Assembly (NCBI RefSeq): GCF_000182565.1
Contig: NW_015971556.1
Span: 62,001-126,000, forward strand
Reading direction: 5' to 3'
DNA from: Spizellomyces punctatus DAOM BR117
Taxonomy: Eukaryota; Chytridiomycota; Chytridiomycetes; Spizellomycetales; Spizellomycetaceae
Length of the DNA: 64,000 nucleotides
The position numbers and the translations under genes were made by a program. Below are positions 370-60,801 of the stretch, one piece after another (the first letter of the stretch is position 1; every line of letters begins with the position of its first letter). Under the pieces are notes generated by a model. The model was not told where the DNA came from, ran no database searches, and saw only the letters and a program-made list of their open reading frames with translations.

Positions 370-2897
370 CTATTCGGCCAGAAAACGGTGTATCAACTGT
401 ACAGAACACGATCCCTCCCCAACTGCACTAGCAACACGCTTGACGTTTCCGGACCTCAAATCGCCAACGGCGAAGACACCTGGAAGCGTAGTTTCATATA
501 GCATTGGCTGCCGTTTCCGCTTCCAACCTGCTGCGTGCAGCTTTTCGGGGGTAATGTCCGATCCCGTCTTCAAACGATTGCAAAATTGGGTTAGTAATGT
601 GATCGAAAGTCTATAGTGAAGCGACAATGTTCACCTGAACGAAGCCTTTCTCGTCGATTGCTATCGAACAGCCGCGAAGCCAATCTGTATTGGGTTCAGC
701 TCCAGCCATGCAGAAGATGATTGAAATGGGGTGCGTTTCTCGCTGCTTTGTCTCGTTATTCTCCCAAGTGATAGCTTCCAGTTGAATACCGTTTTTTTTC
801 GACAAATGGAGCTCAACAAGTTCGGTATGAGTATGCACGACAATCTTTGGCGTTGCTAGTACGTTTATGGACGTGTTCAAGCTCATTCCTGTGAATGAGA
901 AAAAACTGCACGACTTACCCTCGATACGCTGGACCAGATACTTCGACATGGTAGCGGACTAGGGGTAAGAAAAGATCAGGACTGCAAAGACATCTATGTT
1001 TGCGGCATCAATAACTGACCAGCCCAGAACCACGAACAAGCATATGGACCTACAAATAATGTGTCAAGTTTCGCTGTCTTCCAGTGGCGATAAATGATGA
1101 ACATACCTTTGCTACCGATTTGCTTAAAAATACCGCGGCTTGCCCGGCACTGTTAGCACCACCAATTATGGCGACCTCCTTGCCCTCACACAGCCTCGCC
1201 TCCAGTCCAGTTGCAGAATAAAATATTGCGATACCCTCAAGCTCCTCCCAATGTGGTATATGGGTTAATCGACGATACTTGGCCCCGGACGCGATGATAA
1301 TGGTTCGCGCTTTTAATGACTGTTTGTCGTGGAGATGAACCCTGTAAAGAGTACCAGGACCAGCTTCCAACTGTTGAGCTTTGGCTGGAATAATGAACTT
1401 GGCGCCGAACTTCATGGCTTGCAGAGTGCCTGCCTGAGCCAAGTCTTGGCCAGATATGCCAAGGGGGAACCCTATGGAAGGAAATATTCAATTGCACCTT
1501 GCAGACAGGAACATGTATCGATCGGTATTTACCGAGATAGTTTTCAATCTGAATTTGGCTAGTTCAGTTCAAGGGAGTGAGCATACAATAAATTACGACT
1601 AGACTATACCTTTGACGATGACCCTGCCTGTCCGCCTGGCGCTTCCTGCTCGACCATGGCCGTGCTCAACCCTTCGCTTGCAGCATAAACTCCAGCAGCC
1701 AGTCCTGCTGGGCCTTTGGAAAAAGAATTACTATTTCGAGCTTGGGCAGTTGCCGCATCCACTAAGCGTGGTAATGCAACGTACCTGCTCCAACAATAAT
1801 TGTCTCATGCACGGTTTCCTCATCGACGTCGGATGTAATTCTCAGGTATTGAGCCAGCTCACAAACTGACGGGCACCTGAGGACATCTTTACCATGTCCA
1901 ATGACAAGCGGCAGATCCTCTTCAGATACACCGAAATGGTTGAGCTGTGGGCAAGAAATGTTGGTAAGACGGGTTTCCATTCTTATAACATGCACGGCCA
2001 ATCCGCCTTACGATGTTATAAGTTTCTGGATCCTGTTCGAGATCCACATACAAGTACGGGTATCCATTACGAGAAAGAAAACTTTTTAGACGCATGCAGT
2101 CGGAAGAATAGCGAGAGCCAAGTAAGATGATGTCGCCTTTGTGTCCTTGTACCTGATGACAAGGTTACGTCTTCTGAAGGGCAACCGTATGGAGAACTCT
2201 TTACTCACCAGAAAAACTCTGCGGGCAATGAAGGTCCTCATTAACTTATCGGACAGGTCAACATCCGTCTGAATAATTGTTTGTACGTTGCTACGGGATA
2301 TCTCCAGAACCTTATGTGGCCAACATTAGACAGGCAATGGCTACGGTTTTAAGAGTCATTGCTTACCTCTGAGTCTACAGCTGCTTTCACACGCACAACC
2401 GATCTCCCATTCAAAATATCTGTATCTCCGGTGAACATACCATCTTCAATATCCGCAATGTGCTCTTCAGTCCCATCGCCATAGGGCAGTACAATGGCCA
2501 GTTTTCCATGTAATACGACATGAAAGTAGTTACTTTCTCCTTCATGAACCAGGATGGTATCTTTAGGCACATGCACAATCGAGCCGAATTTCTTAAGCCG
2601 CTCAAGCTCGTCCTGATCGAGGACTGGAAAGAGCTCATTACGTTGACTCTCAGTCAATCCACGTGTAGAAGGTGTGGAAGCTCGTACAATCCTTGGGATT
2701 GCCGTTCTGCAAACATCCGACGCCAGTTCATTGGTAAAGTTTGCGGGAGCGGGTTTAACAGTCGGACCGTTCTTTGTAGTTGCGGGCATGGTAAAGAATC
2801 GGAGATGAACGTTAACTAAAAGTGATCGGAAGAAGCAAGATCTTCTCGCAAGTTTTGGCACGATGAAATTCCGATGGATTATAAAACGGGTTGCCAT
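370..2897 (-). CDS. Cyclic-nucleotide-binding thioredoxin-reductase-like flavoprotein
   Basis: Predicted FAD/NAD(P)-dependent oxidoreductase of about 635 residues. Eleven exons keep phase throughout: 2367-2897, 2209-2310, 2012-2152, 1785-1944, 1610-1713, 1533-1548 (a 16-nt microexon), 1107-1471, 1020-1049, 919-958, 635-855 and 370-567. Order of parts: an Arg-rich N-terminus that could be a mitochondrial presequence (an alternative ATG lies 36 codons in, at 2787); a cyclic-nucleotide-binding domain (about residues 70-205); a glutaredoxin-like segment with the motif [13 protein letters not shown]; an FAD-binding [21 protein letters not shown]; an NAD(P)-binding [13 protein letters not shown]; and a C-terminal [21 protein letters not shown]. 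The CxxC redox pair of classical thioredoxin reductase is absent; YSAT stands in its place. This three-part architecture is familiar from bacterial proteins. Physiological substrate and electron partner are unknown. The ATG at 2897 was chosen as the first in-frame one. Confidence 0.88.
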
Positions 2898-4047
2898 ATA
2901 TAAGGCGGCCCACTAATAGGCGAGATCTTATAACTTTCCATGTGCTATTTTCATGACACAACCTTTTCTCAAGGACAAGACCACCAGCCTTGTCAGACCC
3001 TGGGAGAGCGCCCGCAGGCTCTTCTTCTTACCCAGCGTGAATATGTCACTTATGGTTGCTGTCTGTGCTGCGTTCTTTGACCAATGATCTCACACTGCTA
3101 GAGAAACCTATGGTACGTAAAAAAAATTACAGTAAGTTAAACGTACTTTTAAAGGTACCATTGCCACGTGCAAGACGAGCATTCCACGGCAAAAGTAAAT
3201 ATGTGTTACCAACCTTGCTAGTAGATATCTTCCAGGGACTGCTTGATGAGCCGAACCAACAATGCATAACCGCCAGCCAGACCCAATAGAATGTTATTCA
3301 GAAGAGGAACTCACCATATTTGCGCTTCAAATCACATTTGTGTGAAAGCAGTTATCGAGATGTTCGGGATGGGCACACTAGGATCCAGAAACATTCAAAG
3401 AGCATCATAATTCAAAAGATTCTCTGATTTGAAAAGCCCAAAGTCTGGCTAGTGGAATCAAAAACCCAATGTCGACGGGTGCTGGCATCTCTTACTGTGC
3501 ACATATATAGTCTAGCCATATCAGTGTGGATTCACAAAAGGCCACTTTTCAGCATCTGCAATCGCCTTGTGAGTACCAAACGAAATATATCTTCGTTGTT
3601 GCCTGTCTGTACTGTTGCTCCTCTGCGGCTTGAGCTGCTTGGAGTACCTTACTGAGACCCAGTGCGTCATCAGCGTTACCCTCGACATCGCAGATCGAGA
3701 TCTATGAGCTTAATGAGGTATCTGCTTCAGCCTTCTTTATAACATGACGAGGTGGATATGCACATGGACGCACTGGCAGGTTTTGCGGCAAGGACTGTCC
3801 GGGACTTGAGACGGTCGTGGACCCATAGGACGATTGCACTATTTGGTCTTTTTCATTTAAATGCTTGGAATGAGTACCCAGCGTGTGAATCCACATCATT
3901 AGGCACGACGAGAACTAATTGATTTGAAAACTCATACAAGAGGATATCATAACTACATTATATTCTAACCAATACACACATACCTGCTGCACTTTATAAT
4001 TATGTACGAACAACACATACTCCCACTTTGCTTCCTCCGCTAGTAAA
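2898..4047. other. Intergenic, no gene recognised
   Basis: About 1.1 kb between the start of the flavoprotein gene and the 3' end of the phospholipase gene. Open frames are under 80 codons and resemble no family I know. The first few hundred bases presumably hold the flavoprotein promoter; no clear TATA box was seen. Confidence 0.5.
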
Positions 4048-14875: not shown

Positions 14876-17800
14876 CTACTCGTCGCTATATACAATCCCA
14901 GCTTCCTCCGTGGTCTTCATCTGTCCCAGTTGGTTTCCACTTTCTAGTATGCCAGGTTGCCCATCTGTAGAAACACCCTCTCCTTGATCTTCCGGGACGG
15001 CCTCTAATTGACAAACATCATCGTCCACATCTCGCCACTCGTCGTCATGCATAGCCTGTTCATCGCCAGCAGAATCAGCCATCTCTATGGGATGCCAACC
15101 ATCGTCTTCCTCGCCAGGTTCTCGATCCCAGCTCGTACCAGTAAATTCGAGCGCTTCATGCTGACTCGTCCCGCGCATCGAACTGTTGCGTTTTACTAGC
15201 GTGCCAGTGTTTAGTGGGCTCTTGTGAGTGACACTGATTGTTCGAGTGGGGATTCGGGCCCGGATCAGGGTACGAGATGCACTGACGGGATCATGAACTA
15301 TAGGTCGAACGGGAAGCGGTGGATCTTGGGTTGGTGGGATATCCCCGTACGGGCTGGACAAGATCTCGGACGGTGGTTTGTCTTCAGATGATACGCTCTT
15401 TTCTGGGATTGGTTTGGGGAACATGGTGGGATCTACGGCAGCAGACGTGGTTCGCGGCGGAATACCAATGGATGGGAATGTTATTGTGGGATCATATCGA
15501 ACGATTCCGCCCCCGTTCGACATTCTTTTGAAAATGATGCGCGGGTGGGCTGATCGTAGCGGGATAAGAATACGTCGACTGGATGATCGTCGCAGGGGAG
15601 GAACCGCCGAGGTCGTGGCTGGGTCCGAGGATGGTGTCAACGGTTGTCCATGCCCTTTGCCAGGTTGAACATCGTCCAATCCCGAGCTTGGTTGCCGTCT
15701 ATGCCCTGGGATACCCTGACCCCTCCCTGCGCTGGTCTTTCGTCGATGCCCTAGGATTGGGTTCCGACCAACGCTCGGGTTCCGCCTGTGACCTAGTCCA
15801 GACTCGCTACTCGTTCGATCCGATGCACACACGCCCTCCGCCAAATGATCATTCAGCTGCTCGCGTCGTCCCTCCCACCCACATCCAGCCGCCTTGCAGC
15901 GCACCACCAAATTCTTGACCATATCTTGCACATCCTGCGCTGGAGCCACATGTCCCGGCCCAATTCGCGATCGACAGAACGGACAGCTCTTGCTGTGCGC
16001 TAACCATCGCCAAATACAGGAAGAGCAAGCCACATTTGCGCAACAGCTCAGCCGAACAGCGCGCTCACAGACATCTACACAAAGAGGGCATGTAGCGAAT
16101 TCCCGCGGATCAGGCGGAATAGCGTTGGCGAACTCGGGGGTTAGACCAAGTCCATTGTCGATGTGGTGGCTGGCCGAGGTGCCAGGATTCATGACATCGG
16201 CGCTACCAAGATACGTAAACCTTCGTCGCGAAATCTCCTGCCTCTTTGTGTTCCCAAAAAGTGACGAGATGCGCGGAGATATAACAACGGTCGAGGGGAG
16301 CCCGCTACGTGCTTTTAACGATGGCTGACGACGATGGCGACCACTGGGTTGACGGTGTAATCGTCCACTCGCTGGCATGGTAGTGCTCTCCGCTACTGGC
16401 GGTGGTTGAATTGGTATGTCGCTTGCCGGGAGCGGTAGTGTGAGACTGTTGCGAGATGGTACGATGGGAGGTTCTGGTTCTGGTACGATCTGGGCGTGCG
16501 GTGCAAAGATGTGTGCATGGAGCGATCGTGATGCAGTCGACGCATTCGCGCTACCAGGAAGAGGAGGTCGAGCAGCTGCTGGCATCGCTTCTATGCCAGA
16601 CGGCTTGATAACCCAGTAAGCTAACGGCGTCAGATCATCGTCTTCCGTGGTTTCCGCGACTTCAGGGCCGTCTTTCTGTTGGTCCTGCAGGGCCACTGAT
16701 TCAACCAGCAGTCCAGCACCTTCACTAGGGATAGAACTTGCGTCAGTACCCGCGACAGACTGGTTTTGCCAATCGTTGGTCGACACGTTCTCTTCTATCA
16801 GCATTTTCGGACGCTTTTTAAATAGCGATCGCACACTACCGGTCGTACTACGCAAGTTACCAGCGCCAACAGGCAGGTCCTCGTGATGTACTGGTTCGTG
16901 AGCATCCGCTACCGCATGCTTTTGCCCAAGGTCCTCCGCCGACGCTCTGGTTTTGACCTCTACAGGCCGGGCTGTTTGGTCTATCGCATGTGGTGGCAAA
17001 GCTGCATTCTCCGAGATATCACTCCAACTTTCCTCATCAGGCCGTGTTTGCTTATCTGCAGAAGCGTCGTGTCCGTGTTCGTTTGGAATGGGCCCTTGGG
17101 GTATTCCAGTAGACTGACTTGTTTTGATCCCAGAGCGATCCTTCTTTTTAAATAACGAAGGACGTGCCTGCAATTTAGGCTCCGAAGGAGGGGGTTGTGA
17201 AGCGAATGCGACTAGCCCCGGTATTGGCATTTTACTAGCCAATCGTACGGGAATCGGAACTGGAGATCTTGCCGCAGTTGCTTGAACATTAGTGGGTACC
17301 GTTGTCGGTAGGTCAGTGGGCAATTGCGGCAAGGCCTTCTCGGGTGGCGGGCGTCCCATCTCACCGGTTGATGGTGCAGGAACCACAATTTCGGGAAGAG
17401 TACGCATTATTGGAGGCAACTCTTTGTTTACATACACCAAACCGATCGAGCTCGCTCGCGGTATATCAGTGGGTTGGTGTGCTAGAGCAGGTTCTAATGC
17501 GTTCTGCGGCTGCTCCTGACTAGGCGCAGGCTGTGATGATCCTAGTACGTCCGTAGGAATGACAGGGACTGTTGAGATACTTGGCATGATATCATTCCTC
17601 GTCACTACCGGGTTTGTTCCAGCCGCAGGTTGTTCTATTGTGTCTGAATCACCCGTCCGCCCAGCGTTGACAGGTAATTCTGATGGCAGTGCCACATTTG
17701 GAGGACATTCCACAGTCGCCGTTGCTGGTGGTGTTTGTGGGGCCGATTCTGCTTGGACAACGGTAATTGTCGGGTCATTGTGATTCACCCTTCCAGGACT

Positions 17801-18414
17801 TGATATCTCTGTTATTCCCTTGTCCGTTGGAATAGTTACGGCACCGTCCACACATTCTACGTAATAGAAGAGTTCAAACTCAATACAGGCGAAGTTTTAC
17901 AGGATCATGAAATCATAAACAAACCTCCTTCGTCAGAACCATCAACGGCATTCACATTTTTGGCATTCAAACATTGGTCTCCATCTTCCACGGCAGTAAC
18001 ATAACTACAAACACTACTATCTTCCGCATATCCAGCTTCCGTGTTCTCATCACTCTGTTCAGCCGCCAGCCTTCCAAGGGACGCACTTCGTCGCTTCAAA
18101 GGTGTGGACCGTCGCCACCTCCTTGGTGTAGGTTGAGCAAAATATCCTTCAATAATCTCCCGTTCATCAACCTGATCAGGCGATCCACCCGATTCCGATC
18201 CACTCATCGACAAATGATCTCCCATCGTATTCTTTCCTTCCTGCGTAGATCCTTCCTGTGTCGCCTGGTCATCCTCTGCAACCAATGTCATATGGGTCGC
18301 AACTGGCGGTGTTGCAGGTAAGATCGATACCAAGGGCGGCGTGATGGGATTGAGGGGAAGGGGTAACGGGAACACTGCAAATTCTACACCAGTTGCAGGC
18401 ATTTTGGGATGCAT
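14876..18414 (-). CDS. Large RING-finger protein with TRAF-type zinc finger, probable E3 ubiquitin ligase
   Basis: Two exons, 17925-18414 and 14876-17856, joined in phase by a 68-nt intron, give about 1,156 residues. Most of the chain is Pro/Ser/Thr-rich and probably disordered, with basic patches and RH(R)KxS-like sites. A C3HC4-type RING lies at about residues 752-795 (CPLCVDVCERAVRLSCCANV, then CSSCIWRW and SCPFCRSRI). A short TRAF-type zinc-finger segment follows directly (VVRCKAAGCGWEGRREQLND, then H-x5-C). RING proteins of this layout recruit an E2 and transfer ubiquitin; the substrate is unknown. An acidic C-terminus (DDEWRDVDDDVCQLEAVPED) ends the protein. The ATG at 18414 is the only one in the open upstream frame, which extends to about 18545, so an additional 5' exon is possible. 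Confidence 0.8.
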
Positions 18415-28491: not shown

Positions 28492-30358
28492 ATGGGGATA
28501 TACATTACGTTCCTTATCGGATGGATAACATTGTGGAGTGTCCGTGCACAGCAGAATTTGTCTGTGGAGGTTCCGTTTCGATGGGGACATGTCGGTATTG
28601 GGGTTCAAGGGCGGGTTATGGTCGTTGGGGGTGTCGAGACGGTTGTTGAAGATGTGAATGGTAAATGTTCATGATTGAATGTATCTAGTATGGGTTTATT
28701 GAAAGGTTTTTTCGCGTGTAGAAGTCTTTCCAGTATCGACGGTTCCAACCCTGTTTTACACTCCGAGTACGAGTACGTTGACGGTACTATCCACATCGGG
28801 GACCTTTCCACCATCCATAGGGCACGCATGTACATTTATCGAAACGGATGGCGGGGTGTACTGTATGGGCGGGTATGAAGGGACAGCACCAGCATTGGCA
28901 CCACGGAGTCGACGAGGCGTCTGGAGGTTCAGTTTACAAAAAGGGGATTGGAGTGTTGTTGCTGTTAATGGATTTTTCAATACGTTTGGAGGTGTGGAAG
29001 ATGATACGGGTGTAGCGGATGGACAAGTAGTGTTTATCAACAGGTCATTGGTATTAGTGGGTGGACGAGGGTCCTGTTGGAGTTGTGGGGCAGTTGGAAC
29101 AGGGGAAACGGCCGTACAAGGTACGATATCCCTATTAGATGGGACACAAGTCCGAGTTGTGCATGAACCTGCTGGCGGGTTATATGGACATTGTACGGTC
29201 CAAGTCAACAACAATGTTTATACATTGTTTGGAAATACGACAACGAACGGAGGGAATAATCAGACGTGGGTGTTAGGTCTCGGAACGACACCACCGGTGA
29301 TTTCTTCACTGTTGTTGCTTCCAATAGGGTTTTCACCTCCGGTACGCTTATTCCCGACATGCACCGTGAACGGGAACACTATTATCGTAACAGGAGGCAT
29401 ATCACCTAATGGAACGTACCTAACCGATACATGGGTCCTCAACCTCTCGACACTTGTCTGGACATCCATGCCCGTAACGGGTCTCATCCCACCCCCACGC
29501 ATCCGTCCAGCCCTTTTTCAACTCGGGAATGGTGTCATTGGTTTACAAGGGGGATTACGACGGGATCGAGTAGTCGATACAGGACTCTACGCATTGGATA
29601 CAAGGACAAGACGATGGGAACAAGTTGTGATTAGTCGTCTCGAGACACCCTTACCCACTCCTCCTATACGTGAACCAGAGGGGACGAGTAAATGGTTAAC
29701 GATTGGGTTACCCATTGTGGTAGCCATCACAGCCATAAGCGTGTTGATCCTCGCGATCGGATTATGGAGATTCTGGATCCGATATCGAAATGATCATACA
29801 ATTGAACCTCGTCAAGATGATCATACAAGTAAACCTCCACCGTCTCCATCAAGAGACTCGGTAATAACCGTCCAACCCACCATCCCCCCTTTTCCCGATC
29901 GACATCTATCACCTGTACCACAACCTTTATACACACTCCCAAATGACCCCCTCCAATCCCTCCCCCAACCACGGCATCCAATCAATTTGACAAAACCCTA
30001 TACAGCCGCCCACGAACACACACCAACGCGTCCAGACGAAACACTCGTAACACCATCAGATACACTTACCATCCGAAAAGTATATAAAGATGGATGGTGT
30101 GTTGGGATGAATGTGACGACGAGGACGGGGGGGTACTTTCCAGTAGGTGTTGTAAACAGTCGGGAATGGGAAACCTCTTCCATGCATTCTCGACAAAGTG
30201 ATGAAACCAGTAATTCGACGTCAACGTTATGTTCACCCCCAGATGGTGTACTAAAAGTTTTGGAAGAGTTGGATTGGGCACTGGAAACTGGGGTACTGGA
30301 TTTGGAAACGTATTTTGGGAGGAGAAAACGGGTTTTTTTTTCTATTGGGTGGGGATGA
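28492..30358 (+). CDS. Single-pass membrane protein with Kelch-like ectodomain and cytoplasmic SH3 domain
   Basis: Two exons, 28492-28660 and 28734-30358 (73-nt intron), give about 597 residues. Order: signal peptide (MGIYITFLIGWITLWSVRA); a Kelch/galactose-oxidase-like beta-propeller region, seen from repeats such as GRVMVVGGVE, GGVYCMGGYEG, SLVLVGGRGSC, NTIIVTGGISPNGTYLTDTW and GVIGLQGGLRR followed by LYALDTRTRRWEQ; several N-x-T sites; one transmembrane helix at about 375-402 (WLTIGLPIVVAITAISVLIL); a Pro-rich cytoplasmic stretch; and an SH3-like domain at about 490-535 (TLTIRKVYKDGWCVGMNVTT then GGYFPVGVV). The layout suggests a surface or wall sensor that couples to actin or polarity proteins through SH3, by analogy only. 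The ATG at 28492 was chosen because it begins the signal peptide; one at 28411 is also in frame. Confidence 0.82.
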
Positions 30359-37179: not shown

Positions 37180-39872
37180 ATGTTTTCAATGCTCTACATT
37201 TCCTCACGCATGACCATGACGGGACGGGTGGTGTCGAGTAGGTGGAGAATGAGTTATCGAGCAGGTACGTGTATTGGTGCAATGGTGTTGTCCGCCTTCC
37301 TCACGGACAATGGTTGCTCATCCCTCTGTACACTTTTTCTCTCTTTAAATTTCGCAATTGACAGCCTCGACAACACCCACCCACCCCCACTTTAACAAAA
37401 TCCTCATTGCAAACCGCGGTGAAATCGCCTGCAGAATCATGCGCACCGCCAAACGCCTCGGCGTCAAAACCGTCGCAGTCTACAGTTCCGCCGACGCGTC
37501 CGCCATGCACGTCCAAATGGCCGACGAAGCCTACCACATTGGCCCTGCACCTTCTTCTGAAAGTTACTTGAACGCGAACCGGATTCTGGATGTAGCCCAC
37601 AAGAGCGGCGCGCAGGCCATTCATCCCGGGTACGGCTTCCTATCCGAAAACGCGGCCTTTGCGACTCAAGTCACCGAATCTGGTCTAGTGTTTATTGGAC
37701 CCCCTGCTCAAGCGATTCTATCCATGGGGTCCAAAAGTGAGAGTAAAAAGATTATGCAGGATGCAAGTGTGCCTGTTGTGCCAGGGTACCATGGTGAGGA
37801 ACAGAGTGTGGAGAGATTACAAGCCGAGGCGGAGAGGATTGGGTATCCGGTTTTGATCAAGGCGGTCAAAGGGGGTGGTGGCAAGGTGGGAAATAAAAAC
37901 GTTTTTTCGAAATGTGTCATCGTTATTATAAAACGGGCCCGTCAACTCACTTTTTGATGTATAGGGCATGCGGATTGTGGAAACACCCCAAGATTTCAAA
38001 GACATGCTCGAGTCTGCCAAACGGGAAGCCACCAAATCGTTTGGAGACGATACAGTCCTTGTCGAAAAATACCTTACTCGACCCCGGTACCCATCTCCCT
38101 TTGTTCCTCGAACGTTTTACGACATACGCTAACTTCCCACTTTCCGACATTTTTTAGCCACGTCGAAGTACAAGTCTTTGCCGACACCCACGGAAACGCC
38201 GTCTACCTCTTTGAACGTGACTGCAGCGTACAAAGACGACACCAAAAAGTCCTTGAAGAAGCACCTGCTCCGGGTTTGTCCCCGGAATTACGGGCATCGT
38301 TGGGTGCCAAGGCGGTTGCGGCTGCAAAAGCGGTGAATTATGTTGGAGCTGGGACGGTGGAATTTATTTTGGATACGCTTGATGATCGGTTTTATTTTAT
38401 GGAGATGAATACTCGGTAGGTTTTTGTTTACGCCTCTATTCCGACTGTCACAACACACAGAGATAGTTTTCCGCATATGCGCGCTTTGCGTACGCACGCG
38501 CACACGCACATGCACAGTTCATTAAGACAGTGCATACAATCCCATATGTACTCTCCACACACCACTAACATTGCCACTCCCCCCTAGACTCCAAGTAGAA
38601 CACCCCGTAACAGAAATGATAACAAACACCGACCTCGTCGAATGGCAACTCCTCGTCGCATCCGGGAACCCCCTCCCAAAAACCCAATCCTCACTAGAAA
38701 TATCCGGACACGCCTTTGAAGCTCGTATTTATGCCGAGAACCCTGCCAAAGGGTTTTTACCCGATACGGGCAAGCTTTTTTATATGAAGATGCCTGATGC
38801 TGCGCCGAATGTGCGGGTTGAGACGGGTGTGAGGCAGGGGGATGATGTGAGTGTTTATTATGGTATGTTTTATTGTTTCTTTTTTTATGGGTTTTGGAGG
38901 GGGAGGGTTTTTGTTGATACGAGTTTTTTTTTTTTTTTCTTTTAGATCCCATGATTTCGAAACTGGTTGTGTCGGGTCCGAACCGTACTGAAGCGCTACG
39001 CACGCTACGTAACGCATTAAATGATTTCCACGTAGGTTTTATTCAATATCCTTGTTTCCCATTGCCCTCTTTGCCAAACATTAAGGAATCCCCAAATCTC
39101 ATTGCATTTTTGTGATTACGGTATTTAGGTCGCAGGTCCAACAACCAATATCCCCTTCCTAACCTCCCTGGCTACCCACCCCTCCTTTATCTCTGGAGAC
39201 ATTTCGACGTCATTTATAGCCGACCACGCTGACACGCTTTCGTTATCTGCACCCATCACCCACGAAACCCTCGCTCAAGCCGCCATGGGTCTCGTCTCAA
39301 CTTGTTCCAAAACACCAACAGAAACAACACCGTGGACAACTCTCCCTTCATTCCGCCTCAACCACCCCCAGACCCGAACTCTAACCCTCCACGACCAAAA
39401 CTCGACTCCCCACAAAGTCACAGTCACCACAGACCCCCAAACCCAAACCCACACTCTCACCACCAAAACCCCCACATCAACACGTACATTCTCGTCCGTA
39501 ACAGCTCATTACAACCCCACCACCCAAATCCTAACCACAACCCTCGACTCAACCCGTCTTACAACCCCCTTTATCCAAACAGACCAAACCCTCCACCTCC
39601 CACCCATAACGCTATCCATCCCAACCATAACCCACACCCACGCAGAAACGAGTGCAAACACAATAAAGACTCCCATGCCGTGCAAGATTTCCGCTATACA
39701 TGTCGTAAAAGGCGATACGGTTAAAAAAGGTCAAGTGGTCCTCGTGTTGGAAGCAATGAAAATGGAGCATGTTGTTAGAGCTCCTGGGGATGGAATTGTT
39801 AAGAGGGTTTTTGGAGTGGTTGGGGATGTTGTTCCTGAGGGACGGGTTTTGGTTGAGTTTGGTCAGGTTTAG
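37180..39872 (+). CDS. 3-methylcrotonyl-CoA carboxylase alpha (biotin-carrying) subunit
   Basis: Biotin-dependent carboxylase subunit of leucine breakdown in the mitochondrial matrix; it carboxylates biotin with ATP and bicarbonate for transfer to 3-methylcrotonyl-CoA by the beta subunit, which is not in this window. Seven exons: 37180-37264, 37365-37885, 37965-38086, 38158-38415, 38588-38862, 38946-39031 and 39129-39872; about 696 residues, normal for the family. Exon 1 encodes a Met/Ser/Arg-rich presequence ([20 protein letters not shown]). Then: biotin carboxylase core [36 protein letters not shown], the ATP-grasp loop [55 protein letters not shown] and [11 protein letters not shown]. The biotinyl domain carries [11 protein letters not shown] with the acceptor Lys at about residue 659. 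The match is closer to MCC alpha than to propionyl- or acetyl-CoA carboxylase, e.g. DLVEWQL and [13 protein letters not shown]. Confidence 0.94.
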
Positions 39873-44471: not shown

Positions 44472-47400
44472 TCAGCGCATAAAACAGGTCACCTCACTCC
44501 AAAGCCAAAACGAAATAGTATTAACAACGTCATTGATATGCTGATACTCCACTTCATCCGCCACTCCCTCTCTAGAGACCGCAGAGACTTCACACACCAT
44601 GTCCCGAGAATCAAGTGGATTGCGATTCAGAGCCTCTGACATATTCGCGCCCATCGATGCTTCAGTGCTCGACCCTGATAGTGGTGTTTGAGGTTCATCG
44701 GTGCCAACAACGCTTCCACCCGCTAGGGATAAAGGTATGGGTGCCGCCAGTGGCAAAAGATTCAATGCGCCTACATGACGGGAAGTCACATCGGCTTCAG
44801 ATGTAGGAGAAACGGGGCTAACGTCGGATCGCACAGGTGACAGCACGAAATGGAGCAGATAGTCCCCGTTATGCGGATTAAAGAGCACCAAATGACGCCG
44901 CCCAGTCGCGCTGTCATCTACAAGATCGCGGGCCGTGTAGGAATAGTATGATTTTAGGTAATCGAGCAGCCTGAGCCAGGGAACTGCCTGGCTGTTGAAC
45001 AGATCTGCGAGATCTGGATCGATATCAAGTAGAGACCGGGAATTCGGCGCAATCTTTTCCAAAAACAGTTTTGTCCATTCACACATCCCGTCATCGATAG
45101 GAGCGCTGTCAGGAGATTCCGGGTTGGCGGCTGCCAAGGAAACAGGATCTTGGGCTTTTAGTAATTGCCGCCACAAATTATCACGCCCATAGTATCGCAG
45201 AGCCTTTTCAAACAGAGGACATGTTGTCAGAGTCAAACCATGATGTAAATACAGCAGTAGTGCCCCTTACCTGCTCAACCAACCGCTCCACTTTTCGCTC
45301 CGCGTGCCGCACAATATCCTTCAAGTAATACCCCCCAGCCAAATACTCATGCAGTGGATCAAACATCATCGCCGTTCCCATAACAGATGACCGACTATTA
45401 TCCAAATCACGATGCGGGAAGACGTTCTTCATATTGACAACCAATAGGAAATAACGCAAGTTGAGTTTAGCGGACGTTGATGACGCTCCGGCACTTCCTT
45501 TACGTTGATGGACACGTTGTTCTTCACGGAGCGTGGCAGTATCCGTAGCACTGTCTTCAACAGTCGAATACACCACGATAGTGTATACAGTCTCTGGACC
45601 CTCGACGGCATCGTCAAAGGTGCCACTTCCAGGTCGGCTGAAATCTGGCGTAGTGGATGTAAGAGAGCACGCGATAGGCTGGCCCTGGTAAACAATAGGG
45701 AAAAACCCGTAGCGCAATGGGTTCTTGAGAATATACTGGAACAGCGAACTCGATACTTGGCCATCATCAATGGCGCAAGACCCATGATGAATCCGGGAAC
45801 ATGCAAAATTGGCTTTACGCGGGTTGAAGAGCATAAAAGCCTTCATCACCAAGAGAAGATCCACCGGAGTTGGCTGTCGTACGCGACGTTCCAAGATATT
45901 TTGAAAATATCTCAAATGGAAATCGTACGAATCTACCATGAAACCAAAAAATCAGTTCAGAGCAGGGAAAGATCCAAATAAACACCAACACTGCGCAAAA
46001 ACACACACAACTCACATGAATTAACATGAACAAGGGCCTTTAGATTTGCACACGCACTCATAAAATCGTCCGATGCGTCCTTTTGATCCTTCTCTCGCGC
46101 CTCGACTGCAGCATCCACATGCCCACCAATGCCCTCTGAATAGCTCAGAGTGTACAGGTTAACGCAACCAAAAATCCCGTCCACGCCAACCTGCGCAATC
46201 AAAACCCCAGTGCTAAACCAGCGCACGAGATACGTTACATCTGCATCAACACAGAGACGATTTGAAATCCAGAATTTCGGCGTGACGCTCGAAGAAGCCG
46301 CAAACAAAGTGCCGCCAGTTCCACTAGTCACAGTATCAAGCCCTAAATGCCGTAGATATGCAACGTAATCCCGTAAATAAGTATCGATCAATTCGCGATA
46401 CCACCGCATCGTCGTCTCATCGTCAACTGAATTTGAGTTTATCCATCCCGACGAAGTGGCCTGACTGGCATTGGAGAGCAGAGGGGTTGGTGCAGTAGCA
46501 GATGACAGCTCCTTTCCTACGGGCGTATCCAAACTTCCTGGTATTCCGCTTGAAGGCAGATTGAGAGATTGACCCAAAAGCTGGTCACGAATTTCCGTAA
46601 ACAACAGAGGGTATTTTACAAAGTGCAACAACCGAACGGAGCGCAATATCTCCGCCATGTCAGACGCACTAATAAAGACTGGACCCGTGGTACCCTTACC
46701 ACCTGCACTGTCAGGCCGGTCACCTTCCCCCTGACCAGTAAACACGGATGGGACCGAAGGAGTCAAGTGCCCGGCAGAAAGACCACCATCGCGCCGGTTC
46801 ATACGTATGTGCCGCACAAACCAGTCCAGAAATTCTACAGCATGTTTTTGCAAAGTATCCACGTCCATGCCGTATCCAACCCGAATTCCCGCATCGGTTG
46901 TCGTGACCACAGCGCCCGACGTGCCCTTTTCCACCATGGGTGTTCCAGGTGTCGTCACAGTCCTTTGAGCAAAATGCGTCGCCATGGCCATAGCCACAGA
47001 ATCTCCTCCGTAGCTTGCAGGCACGGGCTGCTCTGGATCTGACCTTTGCTTGGGTACTCTGAAATTAAGCTGACGCGTTGTTCCCAATTGTTGCAACGAA
47101 GCAAACTCCTTTTCCAAAAATTGAATACGCAGGTTGTTCCAGCTCAATATCCGCAGAATCTGGCTGAATACTAGATCGCAATACGCACGATTCCAGTTAT
47201 ATGTAAAAACGCCGAGTTGCTCGTTTTCCATGGATAGCACTAGAAAACTGCTCCTGCTCCCCAACTCCAATACGGCGGGATGCAGGTTACCAGAAAATAA
47301 CACGACTTCATCCATCGGAGATTTGGGTCCGGAAGATGTCGCTAGAGTTGCAGCTTGGAAACCCCTAGATGGGCGTCGGTGATGCGGCGGAAATGAAACT

Positions 47401-50400
47401 GTCGTTGCACTTTCCGATGCCGAGTCCTCTTGCGGGCCACGAGCTGCGTTTACTCCAGTTGACACGCTAGGATTAACCGTTCCAAAGGTCATCATTGCTG
47501 CGGTGCTCGAGCTATACGGCCCTGATGAATCCGAGTCGAACGACTGCTTTCTGTCTACCACAGACGGGAACCGTGGGCGCCACGGCCCATATCGCGCATG
47601 GAGATCCTTCAAGCCAACGATCGCTACATACAAGTCCTTTCCTTCAACGCCGTCATTGTCAAAAGTCGCGCCATAGGTGCGTTTGGTAGGCCGGTGAACC
47701 TCAAACTCGTTTTGGCCTTCAATGGTTGACTTGAGTACCCTTCTTAGCATGACGGGAGTCAGCATAGCACCATTGCCCGTCAAAAGATCATTGACCTCTG
47801 CAGCAAACTCTTCAATAATCCAAGAAGGAAGGTTAACAGGTGATGTCAAGTGTTGAACTGTGGGCGTCCCAGCATCTGCGGCCCGTTGAAGAACCTGGCA
47901 AAGTGTCCCGTAAAACTCTGAAAAGTCATCCACAGGGACCGTATCGGCCTCTGGAGTTTTCTCCTCACACTGATCATTCTTCAGTTGGGATTCCGAATCC
48001 GTGGCAGAAAATGGGGAGACCAGGGATCCCGTGGGGCTTTGCACAGTGTCCACATACAACTCTGGGGCAGACTGTAGAGGAGAATCCTTCGCGCCGGCAT
48101 TCAATCTTCCAACTGTTGCTTCAACCATGTAATCCATCAGCGTGTTGCGGACGGCGGTGTCCAACCGCCCAGCAAGCCCATCCAAGTTGATGCTGCCCTG
48201 GCACCAAATGTCTGCAATAAGCTTATACCCTTTCCACTCAGTTGCATCCTCCTGGCCGCTGTGATGAGCGGGCATCCATTCTACATGTTCTAGTAGCTCA
48301 CCAGTGGTCACTGTCCCCTCCACTCCTCCTTCGGCACCGACGCCAGGTGCTTCCACCATGACGCGTCCCTCATGGTCCAGTAGTGCCAAGCATATAGAAG
48401 CGATTCCTTGGCCCACCGTCGCCTCTGTGGCAGTCGGATTTCGGGTGGGAATACAATTATACAAAAATGAAAAGTCGGATAGCTGCACTTCATATGTACG
48501 TTTCCTAGCGGGGTAAATAGCGATCAGCACCATATGACGCTGAACTTTGCCTTCAAAAAACGTACCCTTGAGGATTGTCAACGGCCCTGTCCGCCCATCC
48601 AAACGTGGCACCATAATGTTTTCTCAGACTGGACACCACATCCGCACCGCCAAGAACGTGCAACCACGACAATAAATTTTGTCGAAGGAGCAGCAGAAAC
48701 ACGTACGGGCTTCTCACCAGTGTAGGCAATTTGAACCATTCACGCCGAATGGGGCCACAGCCACGGCCCGCGGGTAGAATAAAGTCCAAATCCGCTCGAG
48801 TCAACTTTAACGTAACATTTCTGGCTAAAAAGGTCCCAAGAACATGTTGGGTAAGAGCATTGATCTTCACTTCCACCATATTTACAAACTCATTTGTGAT
48901 TTGTGGGCCAGGTCTATCCACTCCGAACACCTCCAGTACGAGCGCCCAATCTGGGGACCGAGACGTTCCGGTCGAGGGAGCTCCAGATACGACAGACGGC
49001 GGCGCCAAACTGGATATGGTTGAGCGTCTCATTAGAGGCGAGTTTTGTCCTTTTGGGGAATCCGATAGTCCCGGTCGAACTGTGGTTCCAAGCCCTTCGC
49101 TCAGGCTTGCCGACAATGGCGCAGCCTCGGACTTTTGATCCCTCTCCTTCTCCAGATCCAGTTCCTCAACAGACATCTTCATGTAAAAGACAGATCCTTT
49201 GGCAGCAAACACCAGCATGTTCTTCCTATTGACTATTCCGAATGCTTCTAGGGCAACAACGATGCTGCTCAACGCTTGGTGGGGACGAAGCCGCCAATGG
49301 AGTGGAAAGCTATGGCGGAAGACTAGAGGACAGGCAAAGCGGCCAACTGGGAAGCGATTGCCAGGTCCATGTTCCGGAGGAGAAGGGCTCGATGAGAGGT
49401 CGTCATCGTCCCTTGGTCGGATACGCAACTGTCCGGGTGCAGACTCATCCTCCTGATTTGTCGGAGCGATAAGGTACTTACTGATGAAGAAATACGCTTC
49501 GCTTAATACTTGTCCTGTGGGGCAACAAATACGTGATTTCCTTACCTGGCAGTATGCGTCTCACTCAGGCGCTTTAAGAGATAAAGCCGGTTAACCCGCT
49601 CACAGCAGTCCGTCACACCTTGGCGTACCGTGCGAACAATAGCCAATCTGTCATATCCAGTTACACGCTTCGAGAAGAAATGCACCTGCGCGGACTGTCC
49701 AGCCACTGTGACAATGAGCCAGAATTTGCGCCGCTTAGACGACCCCTGGCCCTTGAGGGTTCTGTCATCCTCTCTGACCGGTGACATTGTTCCTTCCTTG
49801 TCCACCTTGTCCAGAGGTTTGCTTGACTCGCTCTTCAATCCGTCCAGCGAGATTCCGAGTCCGTGCACGTTGGAGGCCGCTCTATCCTCATCCTCCAAAC
49901 TCAACTCATTTCTCTCAGCTTCATGGCTGTCCACAAATAATTCGTCAACCACACAGAACAAGTCCCCAAGTCTTTGCATTCCGCCAACGCCTAGATTCTT
50001 TTGTTCAAGTTCATCTTGGAACATGTGGACCCCTACAGTTGGGCTGATAAAAACTAAAGGAAAGTTCAATGCCAAGCTAGGACCAGATTCTGTAGCAGCA
50101 AAAACAGGGCTGGACCCTTCATCCTCAACGGCCGCATTGATACCATGTCTCTTTCGTAAAATGCCTTCGATAAGTCGAACTGTCGAGGCCTGTACCGGGT
50201 GAAACTCCAGAAGCGCGTGCATAATTTCATCTTCCAGTAACGCCTCGATTTTACGAGCCGTTTCTTGTAAGACTACCTCTTTATCTGTTGTCAACGAAGG
50301 AGGGGATTGCTCATTCAATGCCGCGTGCGATCCTAACGCTTCGTGAATGTCGCTTCCGGTTCCACTTTCCCGGCTTGGGCTGAGCAGGATACTATCCTGG

Positions 50401-53400
50401 TCGGATCCCTGACGAAGGCCACCACTTTTTATCGGCGAGTCCACCCGCAAACTTTGCGGGATAGTTAAGCACACCAAATGTAACACCGCTCTCGTCCCAT
50501 CGCCACTTTCTATCGGGCTCACAGACGTTCCAATATCCTCTGGAGTGAAATCCAACACCTCTGTGGTCTCTGTAGTCATTGAATTCTCATTTCCCAATCG
50601 GTACGATCCGGGAAGATCTGTAACAGGAATTTGAGAATGTTCGGCATCCGACACAGTCCGCTTTCGGAAAGAACACTCGGTGCGAATAAACAGCGGTGTT
50701 TCCGCACACTCAAGGTTCTTGAACAGTGTATTAAACTGCAAAGGACCCAAAGGCATGGTCGAGGATGACTGTTCCGGCGTCAGGCGTCTTCGACCTGTAG
50801 CAGGGCCAAAAGATTGACTACTGACTGGCACAGGTTGATGCGGTGGGGCGCTCGTACTGGTAGCGAACAGATTGAGGGTGGATCCTGTATTAGACCTTGA
50901 TGGAGGAGCCTCAGGTTGAGAAACACTTTTCACCAGCGGACGATAAAAGTAAACGTTTCCCTGAGTAACAGTTGATGACGGGACTGGACTGAAGTACTCT
51001 GCCAGCACTTCACGAAAGAGCTCCTGAACATCCTTCTCACTGCCCTCTCTAGAAGAATTTAAAGATGTAAAGGTTACGGCACAAGGACAGACGTAGTTGC
51101 AGTTTACTCACTCTTTCCCAGTTCCTCCCCTGTTGTCGCTATTGTCGATGCTGCTCAATCTTCTTCTTTCGCTCAAGATCCGCACATTCAAATAGCCTGT
51201 AATATCGATATCGATGCTTGTCTCGACGCAAGCCACCACTGCTCTTTGCAAGTCTTTAGTCTCCACATCATAACCCTGTAATAGTGCGGCATACACCGAT
51301 TTCGTAAACGCAGAAGCGAATGCATTATTTAGTTGTGATAGGAACTGTTGAGCGTATTCAGAAAGGGTATCATTTCCGGTTTCGCTCGCCGAAGCGTCCG
51401 CAATAGACGACTCATGGGAAGAGTTACGACTGCTTGAACAATAAAAGCCGCGGGTCGAGCCTTCCGCCAAGACACATCCGTCAACTAGTGCCTTATCCTG
51501 AGTTGACGGTGTCCATGTGCGGATCCTATAATCCTGCAACCCTCCTTTCTTAGGAGCGACGGGCTGAAAGGGAGGATCATCTGTAATAGGGATGCCGCTG
51601 CTTGGCAACCCCGCTCTAACGCACTCCACGACAGTCAGCGCTAGATACTGGGGAGACGTCTCGTCCTCTGTAGCCTCCGATTCTTGCCCCTCCATGTTAA
51701 CCTCTGTATTCAGCATCTTTAGCACTCCAGATCCTTGTCTTTTATTTTTCGACCATGGTTCAAGCGGATAATGGGGCAGGAACACAAGCACAAAGCTGTG
51801 CGGATCCCGGATTTTAACAAAACATTTGGAATCTGTAATGGGTCGCAGGAGGATGTCGGGAAAGTTTTCCTTGCTGTCATCAGAGATTTTCTCTATCGTT
51901 TCTTTAACCCGTTCCAGCAAATCCTTGGAGTGTTCTACCCCTCCGCTAGTTGAGGTCGTTCCCACTTGCCCATCACCCAGCAGAATCTCTCCATCAGCAA
52001 TCAAACCAATCATCCGCTCTAGATATCTGCAAAGGGCCAGATTGATCCTGCTCCTTCTGGTTGTCGCTAAAAACACCGCTTCGAGACTCAGCCAATAGCC
52101 AGGATTGGGCACCGCCGTGCTTTCCTGCACCTCTGGTTTACGCGATGGTATGTTCACGGTTAAGCTAAGGTCGCCACCTCGGGCCCGCAAAAGACCGGCA
52201 TGGCTAGGGGCACGGCTCAAATTCGCAGGTGTGGTAATTTCTAGCAAATTATTTGAAGATGGCGTGCCGGATCGATCTCCACGCAAAGACATTATATCTG
52301 CGATCATGTCGCTGCTAGATGTAAAAGGCCCTGGTGTTGGGGACGGTGACATGGCCCCATTTGCAGGGGACGCCAATACGCCACTGATCGCAGGAGACAA
52401 CGCTCCCTTGGGTAGCTCTTCACACTCGCCTTCACACACCGCAGGAAAATGATACGCCATTGTAGCAAACTCTGCGTCTTCTAGCACGTATCCAAGGGCA
52501 AACTTGGTCGTAACGGCGGTAAAGCCGCGAGCAGACGCAAACCGTTTAGAGCGTCCAACAGGTTTGTTGTCATTTTCCGGGCTTCCACCACCCGCGCGGC
52601 CCAATGCATGAATTTTATCAAACGTGAATAGCTTGTTAAACAGGTCGTGATCTTCCTCGAGCATTGTATCCGCTAACTTGTCATAATGCTCCTTGAATAA
52701 CGCCGCTACCGGCATATTACCCAGGGTATCACTTATCGCCACCTCCGACCCAGCCGGACCATCGACGATCGGTTCTACCCACAGCTCAGTTATGACGTTC
52801 ATATTTTTGTCATCTTTCATGAGAACAAACTGCACAGCACAGATTGTGTTGGGCTCCTGTTCCAGCTGCTGCGGATCGGCTTCGGCTCGAATTGCCTTCC
52901 GTTTCCGAATCTCAACTTCACGATACATTGTGAAGGATTCCGGTGTCTCGCTGATGGTAACGAATCCCTCTTCAACCCTCTTGCGATACATCAGGAGAAA
53001 GGCTAATTGATGTACAGGCATCCGATCGTCGCCAATATTCAGATCAAGTTTATCAACTTCCACATCTGTAAGCCACACCCACCGCTGATTGCGAAGATAG
53101 GCCTTTAAACCCGGATCGGACAAGTATCGCGCTTCGACTGCTTCGATGGCGCTGGCTAGTCGCGAAGCAGGAGATGGAGGTTCAGAATCGGGAGGTGTTC
53201 GAACAACTTTAATCGGCTCCTCCAGTATTCGCTCAGTACGGGACTCTTCAAGTTCGCCCTCCTCTCCAGGCTGGTACACTATCAGAAGCTGTCGTACCGG
53301 TTTTTGGCAGACGATGAGGGGTTGGAAGGTAGCCCCGGACGTCCTCATGGTGTGACTGATATTCCGGACGCCTTGAATCAACTCCGTTATCATGCCCAAC

Positions 53401-56182
53401 CTTTCCGCCGGTTCCATCCCAAAGAATGCCAACTGAAGTGTGGTAAGGCATTCATTTTCTGACGCCAGCGATAAAATACAAAAGCCAGAGGGGATTTCCT
53501 TTACGGTTTTGCCACCTTCAGTATCGATTTCGTGAGCAGGACTGTCCCCGTCTCTTTGTACGAACTTTAAAAACCGCCCTTTCCCAACCGCAAAAGTACA
53601 CCATTCCGATGTCAAGTGATCATTGAGGTAAATCGTGGCAACCTGTCGCTTGGTGCTTCTCAGACTTTCCCCTCCCGTAGATGTCGATCTCAGGATTACA
53701 TCACAAGTCCACTCATAAAAGGATTCCCATTTGCTTGTCATTATCTGTGCGAGCACTTGCCAGTAATTGTTCGGAGTGTTTGTTCCGTGACTACCGTTTC
53801 CCGGTGAGCCAGTTGCCGGTCTCCCACCAAATGAGGTCATAAGACCAAGGGCATTATCGGTGGTTAAAGGAAACATTCGCTGCTCAGTCTGCGGAATCAC
53901 TGAGAGGGCATATTTGGTGTTGTAAGATGCCAGCACCTGGATGTGTAATGAGGGCTTCATTGATGACACTCATTTTAATGGGCAAGAATGCAAAGACTAA
54001 CCTTGAAAGAATCATCTGTTTCATAGATTCTCCTTAGGAAGGCATGCAGTTTGACCAGCTTCTCCTCGATTGCATGATTAAAAGTGTTCTTTTGCTCCAA
54101 ATTCTGGGCATTGATGAATAAAATCGCAAATGCATGCTGTGCAAGAATATTCAATTCGATCCTTGGGAGTTTCTGCGATCTACCCGTCAATAGCGGTCGG
54201 TCTGTCGCTGTCCAGGTGGTCTTGATTGTATACATGACGGTAACGTTTGTGAACCAAGGCATTGTAAGGATGACTTCGACTTTGTCGGGCCGATTTGATC
54301 GTGGCGTCACATGCACGCTACTTAAAACAAAGCCCTCATGTAGGCGGGCAGAGATTATATACTCCAGATTGATATTTAGAGTGTAATCACGATAGCCGCA
54401 TAATATCTCGGCAACGAGGGGAGGTTTACTGGTGGGATCCCACGGGAATGACAGCTCCTCCAGTGATATGTTTTGGGTAGTATCAACACTGGCGTTCAAG
54501 AGTCGACCTCGCGGGCAGTCAACTGACCGTTCCCGCCGACTTCCATTCACTACCCGATACCGGTATTCTGTGCCCGATTTCGTCAGGGAACCATCGCGAA
54601 AAAGGAGGTGGCGGTGATAGAAATTCGGAGGTGGAGGAGAATCGGCTGGACTACTATCACCATCCAAATAGTTACAGTCCGCTCCGTATAGAAACGTTCC
54701 GGCAGCCGCAATACCTAGAAATCGTAAAAATTCGTTATCGGCGACATGACCGAAATTGGTCCCTGGCGTATATCCATCTCCTGCCCCGACTTGGATGATA
54801 GTGAATACTGCATTTTCGCGTGATAGCTTTCTACAGCAGTCTCGCGCAATTTGCTCCCCAGCTCCCGCTGGGCTAACAACACCGTCCGTAATGACTACCA
54901 ATGCCGACATGCAGTCCTCTGGCAGGAGGTTTAATGCAAATAATCCTCTGTTTACTGCCTTGAAAACGCTATCCGACGGAGTAGTATCCAGATTGGCTCC
55001 AATCGGCCTCGACGGAAGGCTCGCGTACTCTGCCGTGTCGGCCATTAGAAAACCTGCCTCATCAAGTGGCCCAATGTTGTCCTGAGTCTCCCAATCAGCA
55101 GAGGCGGCCGCTTGTGATCGAGTGTCTCTTTGTCGCTGCTGTACGAGATCGTGTTCATAAGCATTGAGCGCATCGTAAAGTCTCTCAGCAACCGCTTCCA
55201 TGTTGTTCCGGGTCACCACAACTTCCTGCAGCAGTACGCGAGTCGGGTACGTCCGACTGAAGTCTGCTGCTAACGGGCTTTGCTCACTGCGAAAATAGGA
55301 AGTTCCGCATTCAGCCAGTACCGTCACATATATAACCGGCTCGACCTATGAACATCAAGTAAGATTCACGCCTCAAACGGACCAGCTGGACTACAACCAC
55401 ACAACTCGGGTTTCATACATCATAGGTCCCATCGCGCATTGTGCTCTTCATCGAAAACGGTCTACATATTCCGTCTAGGCACTTGCAGAGCCTGCTCAGG
55501 ATTACCCGAAATCGGTGAGCAGCTTCAGACCAATTACCGTCGATATCACTTACGTTTCAAAAGCTACAGATATCAGCGCCTTGGCTTTCCCACTGCTATC
55601 GTCAATGACCGACATGGAAGGTGTAATGTCCACCACAAACACCATTCGATAGCGAGCCGCGAATGAGTAGATTCGAGTTTCTGGCGTAATGCGAAAGCGT
55701 CGATCTTGGGGAGATGACCGCCGCGCAGGCGTACGCAAGGGAGATGGGACAATGGGATCGTAAGAGATCGATCGCAAAGGTGGCGATAGAGAGTGGTCGG
55801 GGGATAGTGGGCTGTCCGGGTTTTCCGAAAGGGAATGCCGTGTCCATGGCAAATGGTGAGAATCGGTCGTAACCTCCACAACTTCCACATTATCATCCTA
55901 TTATAGTGCAATAGGAAAAATAACGTTTAGCCCAATTTGTCGCTTCTCAAAGCCCATAAAGAGAATGAAGCAGAAGCAACCATACGTCTAACTCTGCAGG
56001 CGCAAGTGGACGCAGGATGTGTCGCAGTATCCAGGTATCATAGTCGGCACGAGTGAAGATTGACGGTCGTTTCAGGAGCAATACGATGGCTGCAGCATCT
56101 TCAATGGTGGGGCCCTGCTTTCAAGAGGCGAGATATCAGCATGGGCCAGATCGTGACGAGATAGTAGATGCCTCACCGTCAT
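44472..56182 (-). CDS. SZT2: SZT2 orthologue, predicted KICSTOR/GATOR1 scaffold
   Basis: One 11-exon gene for about 3,680 residues, close to the size of animal SZT2 (about 3,400). Exons, all phase-consistent: 56177-56182 (only ATGACG), 55986-56114, 55554-55897, 55419-55491, 54002-55345, 51112-53936, 49546-51048, 48648-49501, 46016-48586, 45271-45932 and 44472-45203. The N-terminus lines up with SZT2 over its VWA-like first region: AIVLLLKRPSIFTRADYDTW; YRMVFVVDITPSMSVIDDSS (about residue 130); VIYVTVLAE; GLFALNLLPEDCMSALVVIT then DGV (about 335); and NFGHVADNEFLRFLGIAAAG. Later blocks that fit include LRNQRWVWLTDVEVD, EWFKLP with LLLLRQNLLSWL, and a C-terminal INDVVNTISFWLWSEV. Animal SZT2 holds KPTN, ITFG2 and C12orf66 together and brings GATOR1 to lysosomes so that amino-acid starvation shuts off TORC1. 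Long Ser/Pro-rich inserts separate the conserved blocks. Some junctions (e.g. 53936/54002) have alternative acceptors. Confidence 0.9.
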
Positions 56183-59112: not shown

Positions 59113-59200
59113 ATTAAGCCGAAGTGGATGGTTCCCCCGTCGCTACGTAAGTAATTATTAAGCCGAAGTGGATGGTTCCCCCGTCGCTACGTAAGTAATT
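59113..59200. repeat. Exact 44-bp tandem duplication over a stop codon
   Basis: 59113-59156 and 59157-59200 appear identical. On the minus strand the upstream copy (59157-59200) encodes the last residues of the J-domain/TMEM185 protein and its stop; the other copy lies in the 3' UTR. Confidence 0.93.
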
Positions 59201-60801
59201 CGCCTGTCAGACGCCACGATCTCTCCAATCGGCACGTCATCCTCTCCATTCAATTCTGCTTCCAACCCTCGTCGCATGCAACACACCAGACATGGAAGAC
59301 AGCAGCAAAAGCAGCAAAAGAGCAGACTGCTGATAATGAACACCGGAATTAGAATCACCGCGGTTGACGGTGTACCCATACCGTCCTCCAACCGTTTGAC
59401 CAAGAGTCCAACTCCTAGATAGAGGAAAAACGCCATAATAATCAAAAAGATAATTCGGCCAACAAGCAAAACTCGAAGTTCGGCAGGCTTTCCAGCGGCA
59501 GCGGTAGCACGTCGAACAGCCACATGCTCCATTATGATGACAAGTATCTGAATGAATGCCCAGAGCCATGTGGGAAGGAACACTAATCCCCAAGATGCGC
59601 TTATATCGCCATTAAATTTTGCGATCAGCAAAGCTGCTTGAATAATTCGGAGCGGAAATGTCGAATAGGAATCGAAGAAAAGTGCCAGTTTCTCCATTGA
59701 CGAGAAAGGTCGGGTTCCCGGGGTTTGTGATTCAGGGTCTTCATCGTACGGCAAGGGAATCGCTCCTTGCCGAATTGTCCTCACATAAGCGACAGTAATG
59801 TCAATAACGTTGAGAATTTCCATTAAAAACCATGGAATAAACACGATTGCCCAGTTCCAATCGACAGTATCGTCCAAACGGAGCACGAGGAAAATTTGGA
59901 AAAGAAGGAACAGCCCAAAATAGCACCAACGGACTAAAGAGTTAGACGACGCCTTCAGCTTCTTCTTCTTCTCTCTCTGCTCCCGGCGCTCAAAATTTGC
60001 TGTTCGATCTTCCGTAAACCCATCTTCCTCCTCGTCTTCTGGAGTTTGCTTTGTTGAGCGAGTCGATAAAAGAGCGAAAAGGAGGAACAAATCGACAATA
60101 AATAGCGGGATAAACACCACACCCCACGACCAGAAAACTTTGTTGTCCGCGCGCACAGAAATAAATGCGGGAAACATGATCAACAAAGCCGCAATAAGTG
60201 TGCCGACGAAAAAGAGGGTGTTCATTGCGAGTAGAATATCCGGGTCAATAAAAGGGGCAACGTCTCCCATCGATTCCATTAGGACCACGCCCCGCTCGCC
60301 CTATGACAGCCACAAAGTGTCATTAGAAATCAATACATCTCTTCAGTATCCAAACAGAAAAAACTATACATATTGATCGTATATCCTTCGCTTCTTTTCA
60401 TCGCCTAAAGCCCCGTCAGCACTTTGCTTGAGATCAAAGATGTAATATATCACGACGACTCACTCAAAACTTCATACGCTCTTTGCACGAGTTGAAAAAG
60501 CTCTATATTCGCAGGGTCTTGCCCAGTTTTGTCAGGGTGACAACGGAGTGCCTATATTATTCAGTCACAAGAGTTGAGATCACGTCAAGTGCCAACAGAA
60601 GGACCAATGTGCTCAAAGTACCTTGCGTCGATATGCCTATATTTGAATTGTTAATAAACGTTATGACTTTGCTAGGGATCAAGGTGCAAGGCATACCTTT
60701 CTGATAGCTTCGGCATCTGCCGTCCGAGGAACACTCAGGACCTCGTAAAAGTCCCTATTTGGCATGGACGCCAGGTCCGGTAATCCTCCACGGCCTGCCA
60801 T
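59158..60801 (-). CDS. J-domain protein fused to a TMEM185-family multi-pass membrane domain
   Basis: Five exons, 60697-60801, 60622-60636 (15-nt microexon, AYRRK), 60464-60551, 60370-60404 and 59158-60300, give about 461 residues in a continuous frame. The N-terminal J domain starts at about residue 16 (RDFYEVLSVPRTADAEAIRK), carries the HPD motif at residues 45-47 (LRCHPDKTG) and ends LSDEKKRRIYDQYGERGVV. J domains stimulate Hsp70 ATPase. The rest has about eight membrane segments with the repeated pattern of the TMEM185/transmembrane Fragile-X-F family (FWSWGVVFIPLFIVDLFLLF, WNWAIVFIPWFLMEILNVID, SASWGLVFLPTWLWAFIQIL) and a Cys-rich segment LLFCCFCCCLPCLVCCMRR. A cytosolic J domain on an ER or other endomembrane is the likely arrangement. 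The client is unknown. The ATG at 60801 fits; another lies 12 codons in. Confidence 0.9.

Follow-up and report, generated by a model that had tools for sequence, protein, structure and literature searches.

The minus strand of a 64,000-nucleotide stretch of the Spizellomyces punctatus DAOM BR117 genome (the window) carries a giant split gene, which raises the question of whether a chytrid fungus encodes full-length SZT2, the scaffold of the KICSTOR complex, and what such a protein would do there. We found an intact gene of 11 exons separated by GT-AG introns, reading from an ATG at 56182 to a stop codon that ends at 44472. When the exons were joined by their splice sites and reading phase, no internal stop was encountered. 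The sequence-only reading had described an intact gene of about 3,680 codons; its 11 exons and open frame were retained, but its codon count was not, as the protein has 3,673 amino acids after correction of intron 7. This intron was 44 nt long in the first, 3,680-codon model, a version that was rejected. Because the seven residues that it added have no counterpart in the aligned chytrid relatives shown, and the deposited protein is matched exactly once they are removed, intron 7 was corrected to 65 nt (49481..49545, minus strand). Its 3′ end thereby moves 21 bases further on, and exon 8 starts at 49480 instead of 49501, with loss of the seven residues from its beginning. The corrected protein is free of internal stops and identical letter for letter to the deposited protein SPPG_08234.

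All exons lie on the minus strand and agree with SPPG_08234. Exon 1 (56177..56182) consists of only six nucleotides, ATGACG, including the start codon, and is predicted from splice signals and from the deposited gene model. Exon 2 (55986..56114) is conserved among relatives, and exon 3 (55554..55897) opens the block that matches the N-terminus of human SZT2 in the PDB. Exon 4 (55419..55491), exon 10 (45271..45932) and exon 11 (44472..45203), which encodes the C-terminus and the stop codon, are supported by the splice model and by relatives, and exon 7 (49546..51048) by the splice model.

A database search returned SPPG_08234 of S. punctatus DAOM BR117 (Spizellomycetales, Chytridiomycota) at 100% identity, and the contig given for this entry has the same length, 405,129 bases, as the one that holds the window. 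The two are the same 3,673-residue protein and differ in name only, SPPG_08234 being deposited as an 'uncharacterized protein'. The window, for whose fungal identity the sequence-only reading had relied on other genes, is from S. punctatus, a member of Chytridiomycota. The next-best matches listed after the self match were other chytrid proteins at 41–51% identity, and the relatives belong to chytrids and Mucoromycota. Among the 18 matches listed, six already bear the database name 'KICSTOR complex protein szt2'. The szt2 proteins of Geranomyces variabilis and Borealophlyctis nickersoniae are orthologues with 41–43% BLAST identity at 95–100% query coverage. Names are attached to 17 of the 18 matches listed, all of them fungal and none of them, by our own placement, presumably from Dikarya; no animal protein closer than the chytrid ones was among the matches listed. 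Since the search was word-based and scores only those candidates that share most words, these matches are no proof of absence from Dikarya or of distance from animals. When bacterial and archaeal genomes were scanned with the exon 8 frame, 30 pattern matches were obtained and none was confirmed. The other chytrid szt2 proteins differ from SPPG_08234 by ordinary sequence divergence, and several of the database models are shorter or fragmentary. The fungal SZT2 models P0006, P0009, P0011, P0013, P0015 and P0016 have 2,253–3,011 amino acids, far below 3,400, and one is marked partial; such short models may be incomplete gene predictions.

These results bear on the idea that the scaffold is animal contamination, or that the gene was acquired from an animal by transfer. 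No evidence in its favor was found, and we consider it exceedingly improbable given the identical deposited S. punctatus gene on a contig of equal length, the chytrid origin of the closest other matches listed, and the 10 introns, nine of which measure 61–88 nt as first modelled, with a corrected length of 65 nt for the remaining one. Contamination, which the sequence-only reading had itself named as grounds for abandoning its proposal, was rejected because this contig corresponds to the one that carries the deposited chytrid gene.

The identification as SZT2 draws on comparisons with structures in the PDB. Searched as a whole chain, the protein gave two matches at E ≤ 0.001, both to human SZT2, with E values of 3.8e-18 (residues 110–404) and 1.6e-10 (residues 3145–3296). 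Individual exon frames behaved differently from one another. The exon 8 frame (exon 48566..49480) alone gave two matches at E ≤ 1, both SZT2, with the human protein at 1.8e-16; that of exon 5 (54002..55345) gave three matches at E ≤ 0.1, all SZT2, with human SZT2 at 1.1e-8; and that of exon 9 (46016..48504) matched SZT2 weakly (E 0.037). Exon 6 (51112..53936) alone had no PDB match at E ≤ 1, and no Pfam family scored above its cut-off on the seven frames tested (exons 5–11). These last two results are what one might expect of an unrelated giant protein that resembles SZT2 at its N-terminus by chance. Such a coincidence is contradicted because significant blocks of a fungal profile follow one another in the order of human SZT2. 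This profile, made from alignment A2 of 12 of the 18 database proteins (P0004, P0008, P0012, P0015, P0016 and P0018 were omitted), matched human SZT2 of the KICSTOR structures (PDB 9o5a, 9v0j, 25ge) collinearly in N-terminal, middle and C-terminal blocks at E = 5.6e-146. Four ordered blocks on chain 9o5a_D were individually significant (25–344, 399–984, 1931–2270 and 2662–3420), and a fifth (2310–2408) was weak, with an i-E of 0.0021. With the last significant block at 2662–3420 and the C-terminal part matched independently by the whole chain, chance similarity was rejected, and we regard it as having practically no probability.

Together with the identity to SPPG_08234, the profile match bears out the proposal of a full-length SZT2 orthologue in a fungus that retains the N-terminal, middle and C-terminal regions. 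About 950 mid-chain residues (human 985–1930) had no confident counterpart when the 12-sequence profile was compared with 9o5a_D. On these alignments, the predicted chain is an SZT2 orthologue over its whole length with a diverged middle, and at 3,673 amino acids it compares with a human chain of 3,432 residues. The 953-amino acid exon 6 frame matched only itself in the genome, pointing to a single SZT2 orthologue without paralogues as judged by this exon; more than two SZT2 copies are reported for some chytrids in a passage of PMC11836306.

Fungal SZT2 is not new. A 2021 review still termed KICSTOR mammalian-specific in the section concerned (PMC8534245), but the complex, with SZT2 among its subunits, is reported from fungi outside Dikarya in passages of Barua, Plecha and Muszewska (2025; PMC11836306). 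They describe it as conserved in several of these phyla and scattered in the remainder, and they correct and expand a 2017 statement that the complex is absent from fungi. Because of that report the claim is already known, having been in print since February 2025, and the gene described here is an ordinary, already deposited member of the family. In the passages concerned, S. punctatus DAOM BR117 is named for Ltor4 (PMC11836306), and we found no other paper that joins Spizellomyces and SZT2. An origin of SZT2 before animals, as had been proposed, fits the chytrid orthologue and likewise stands in the published passages (PMC11836306). A chytrid SZT2 implies that the KICSTOR scaffold predates animals and that its absence from budding yeast is a derived state, which matters for interpreting TORC1 control across fungi.

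Partners of SZT2 were sought in the same genome, as had been suggested, and the search was partly successful: KICS2, DEPDC5, NPRL2 and NPRL3 are encoded, but KPTN and ITFG2 were not found in searches run without a positive control. KICS2 (C12orf66) was detected with PF09404 at two places (E 6.3e-8 and 8.2e-4). Of four open frames scanned with this family, one passed (E 1.2e-12), one was weak (0.06) and two had no match; the C12orf66-like gene has several exons and lies at C3:971200-975200 on the minus strand. The three GATOR1 subunits gave strong matches, DEPDC5 to PF12257 (E 6.3e-98), NPRL2 to PF06218 (E 7.1e-37) and NPRL3 to PF03666 (E 5.9e-33). ITFG2 was looked for with PF15907 and the N-terminus of the human protein, and KPTN with the human protein as query. 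A database search with human KPTN yielded no fungal query because the named matches, among the best 120 of 567, are vertebrate proteins. Searches of the genome with the FG-GAP_3 and FG-GAP families, also without a positive control, hit places in two other genes only. One, on C13 (520371-523433, plus strand), has weak FG-GAP matches and was rejected as KPTN or ITFG2; read by eye, it is presumably ITFG1-like. The other was rejected because by eye it is a large protein of extracellular type. This large gene lies outside the window (C20:26500-31500, minus strand) and shows EGF-like and kringle-like stretches by eye beside weak FG-GAP matches.

According to part of a review (PMC8534245), mammalian GATOR1 is anchored to the lysosome by KICSTOR, whose SZT2 subunit makes the contact. 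By analogy, S. punctatus SZT2 would act together with KICS2 as a very large scaffold that keeps GATOR1 (DEPDC5-NPRL2-NPRL3) on the vacuolar or lysosomal surface. The tethered GATOR1 would then inactivate the Rag GTPases and TORC1 under nutrient shortage. An intact gene, its orthology and its co-occurrence with KICS2 and GATOR1 are the observations on which this model is built. Because these components are encoded together, a role at the chytrid vacuole like that in mammals is most likely, and we place the probability that the orthologue works by tethering GATOR1 at roughly 0.8. We infer that assembly of the complex, its location and its effect on TORC1 most likely also follow the mammalian pattern.

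A true SZT2 orthologue could also have a main job in chytrids other than GATOR1 recruitment, for instance a different scaffold role with KICS2 in which the KPTN-ITFG2 arm is absent. The outcome of the KPTN and ITFG2 searches, subject to their missing positive control, is in line with this, and in passages of their paper Barua et al. doubt KICSTOR activity where components are missing, chytrids included (PMC11836306). Moreover, Drosophila GATOR1 is described, in a part of PMC13370336, as reaching lysosomes without KICSTOR, so recruitment does not depend on the scaffold in every lineage. Against such a role, the genome encodes KICS2 along with the full set of GATOR1 subunits, and partial sets occur elsewhere, C. 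elegans retaining SZT2 alone of the four according to part of a review (PMC8534245). We judge the alternative unlikely and prefer GATOR1 tethering. Changes in SZT2 expression have been described for Mucoromycota and Glomeromycota data sets in a passage of PMC11836306.

Human KICSTOR contains KPTN and ITFG2, whereas neither was found in S. punctatus by the searches without a positive control. The chytrid complex might be reduced to SZT2 and KICS2, lacking the KPTN-ITFG2 propeller pair, and this half might represent the ancestral GATOR1-recruiting core; we offer this tentatively and think it rather unlikely. With a 24 Mb genome that encodes SZT2, KICS2 and GATOR1, S. punctatus would be a simple organism for tests of function. 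A possible KICSTOR of SZT2 and KICS2 only is one of two points that the published work leaves over, the other being a CASTOR homologue in a phylum with reported Castor loss.

This two-lobed homologue is the deposited SPPG_04748 (C7, match at 1121146-1121349, minus strand). The genome search with PF18700 scored above its cut-off (27.2 bits), and two frames were scanned: one passed PF21389 and ACT_7 and just missed PF18700 (24.7 vs 26.5 bits), and the second passed ACT_7. Both lobes of human CASTOR1 were matched, with E values down to 7.5e-25. Loss of Castor is reported for Chytridiomycota in one passage of PMC11836306, and another passage describes Castor2 alone in some early fungi and Dikarya; SPPG_04748 exceeds what the parts of that paper concerned with Castor report. 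The protein has 101 relatives at E ≤ 0.001, several of them from chytrids. In the human CASTOR1 motif STFNFDHALV, the D is present in chain 5gs9_A and replaced by A in chain 9lvk_U. SPPG_04748 has alanine at this position, and the 101 aligned proteins have alanine in 90 cases, serine in six, aspartate in one and a gap in four. We take the motif D to be Asp304 of CASTOR1, an arginine-binding residue. From this alignment, SPPG_04748 may lack arginine sensing of the human type, which we word as a suggestion because the binding role of Asp304 is our own assumption.

Ten neighboring frames in the window were also scanned with Pfam, and six had no match. A RING finger frame (14876-17896, minus strand) fell below the Pfam cut-off. 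The plus strand carries a Kelch propeller frame at 28703-30358 and a frame with a biotin carboxylase domain at 37349-37957, and a frame for a TMEM185-like (Tmemb_185A) protein lies at 59158-60300 on the minus strand.
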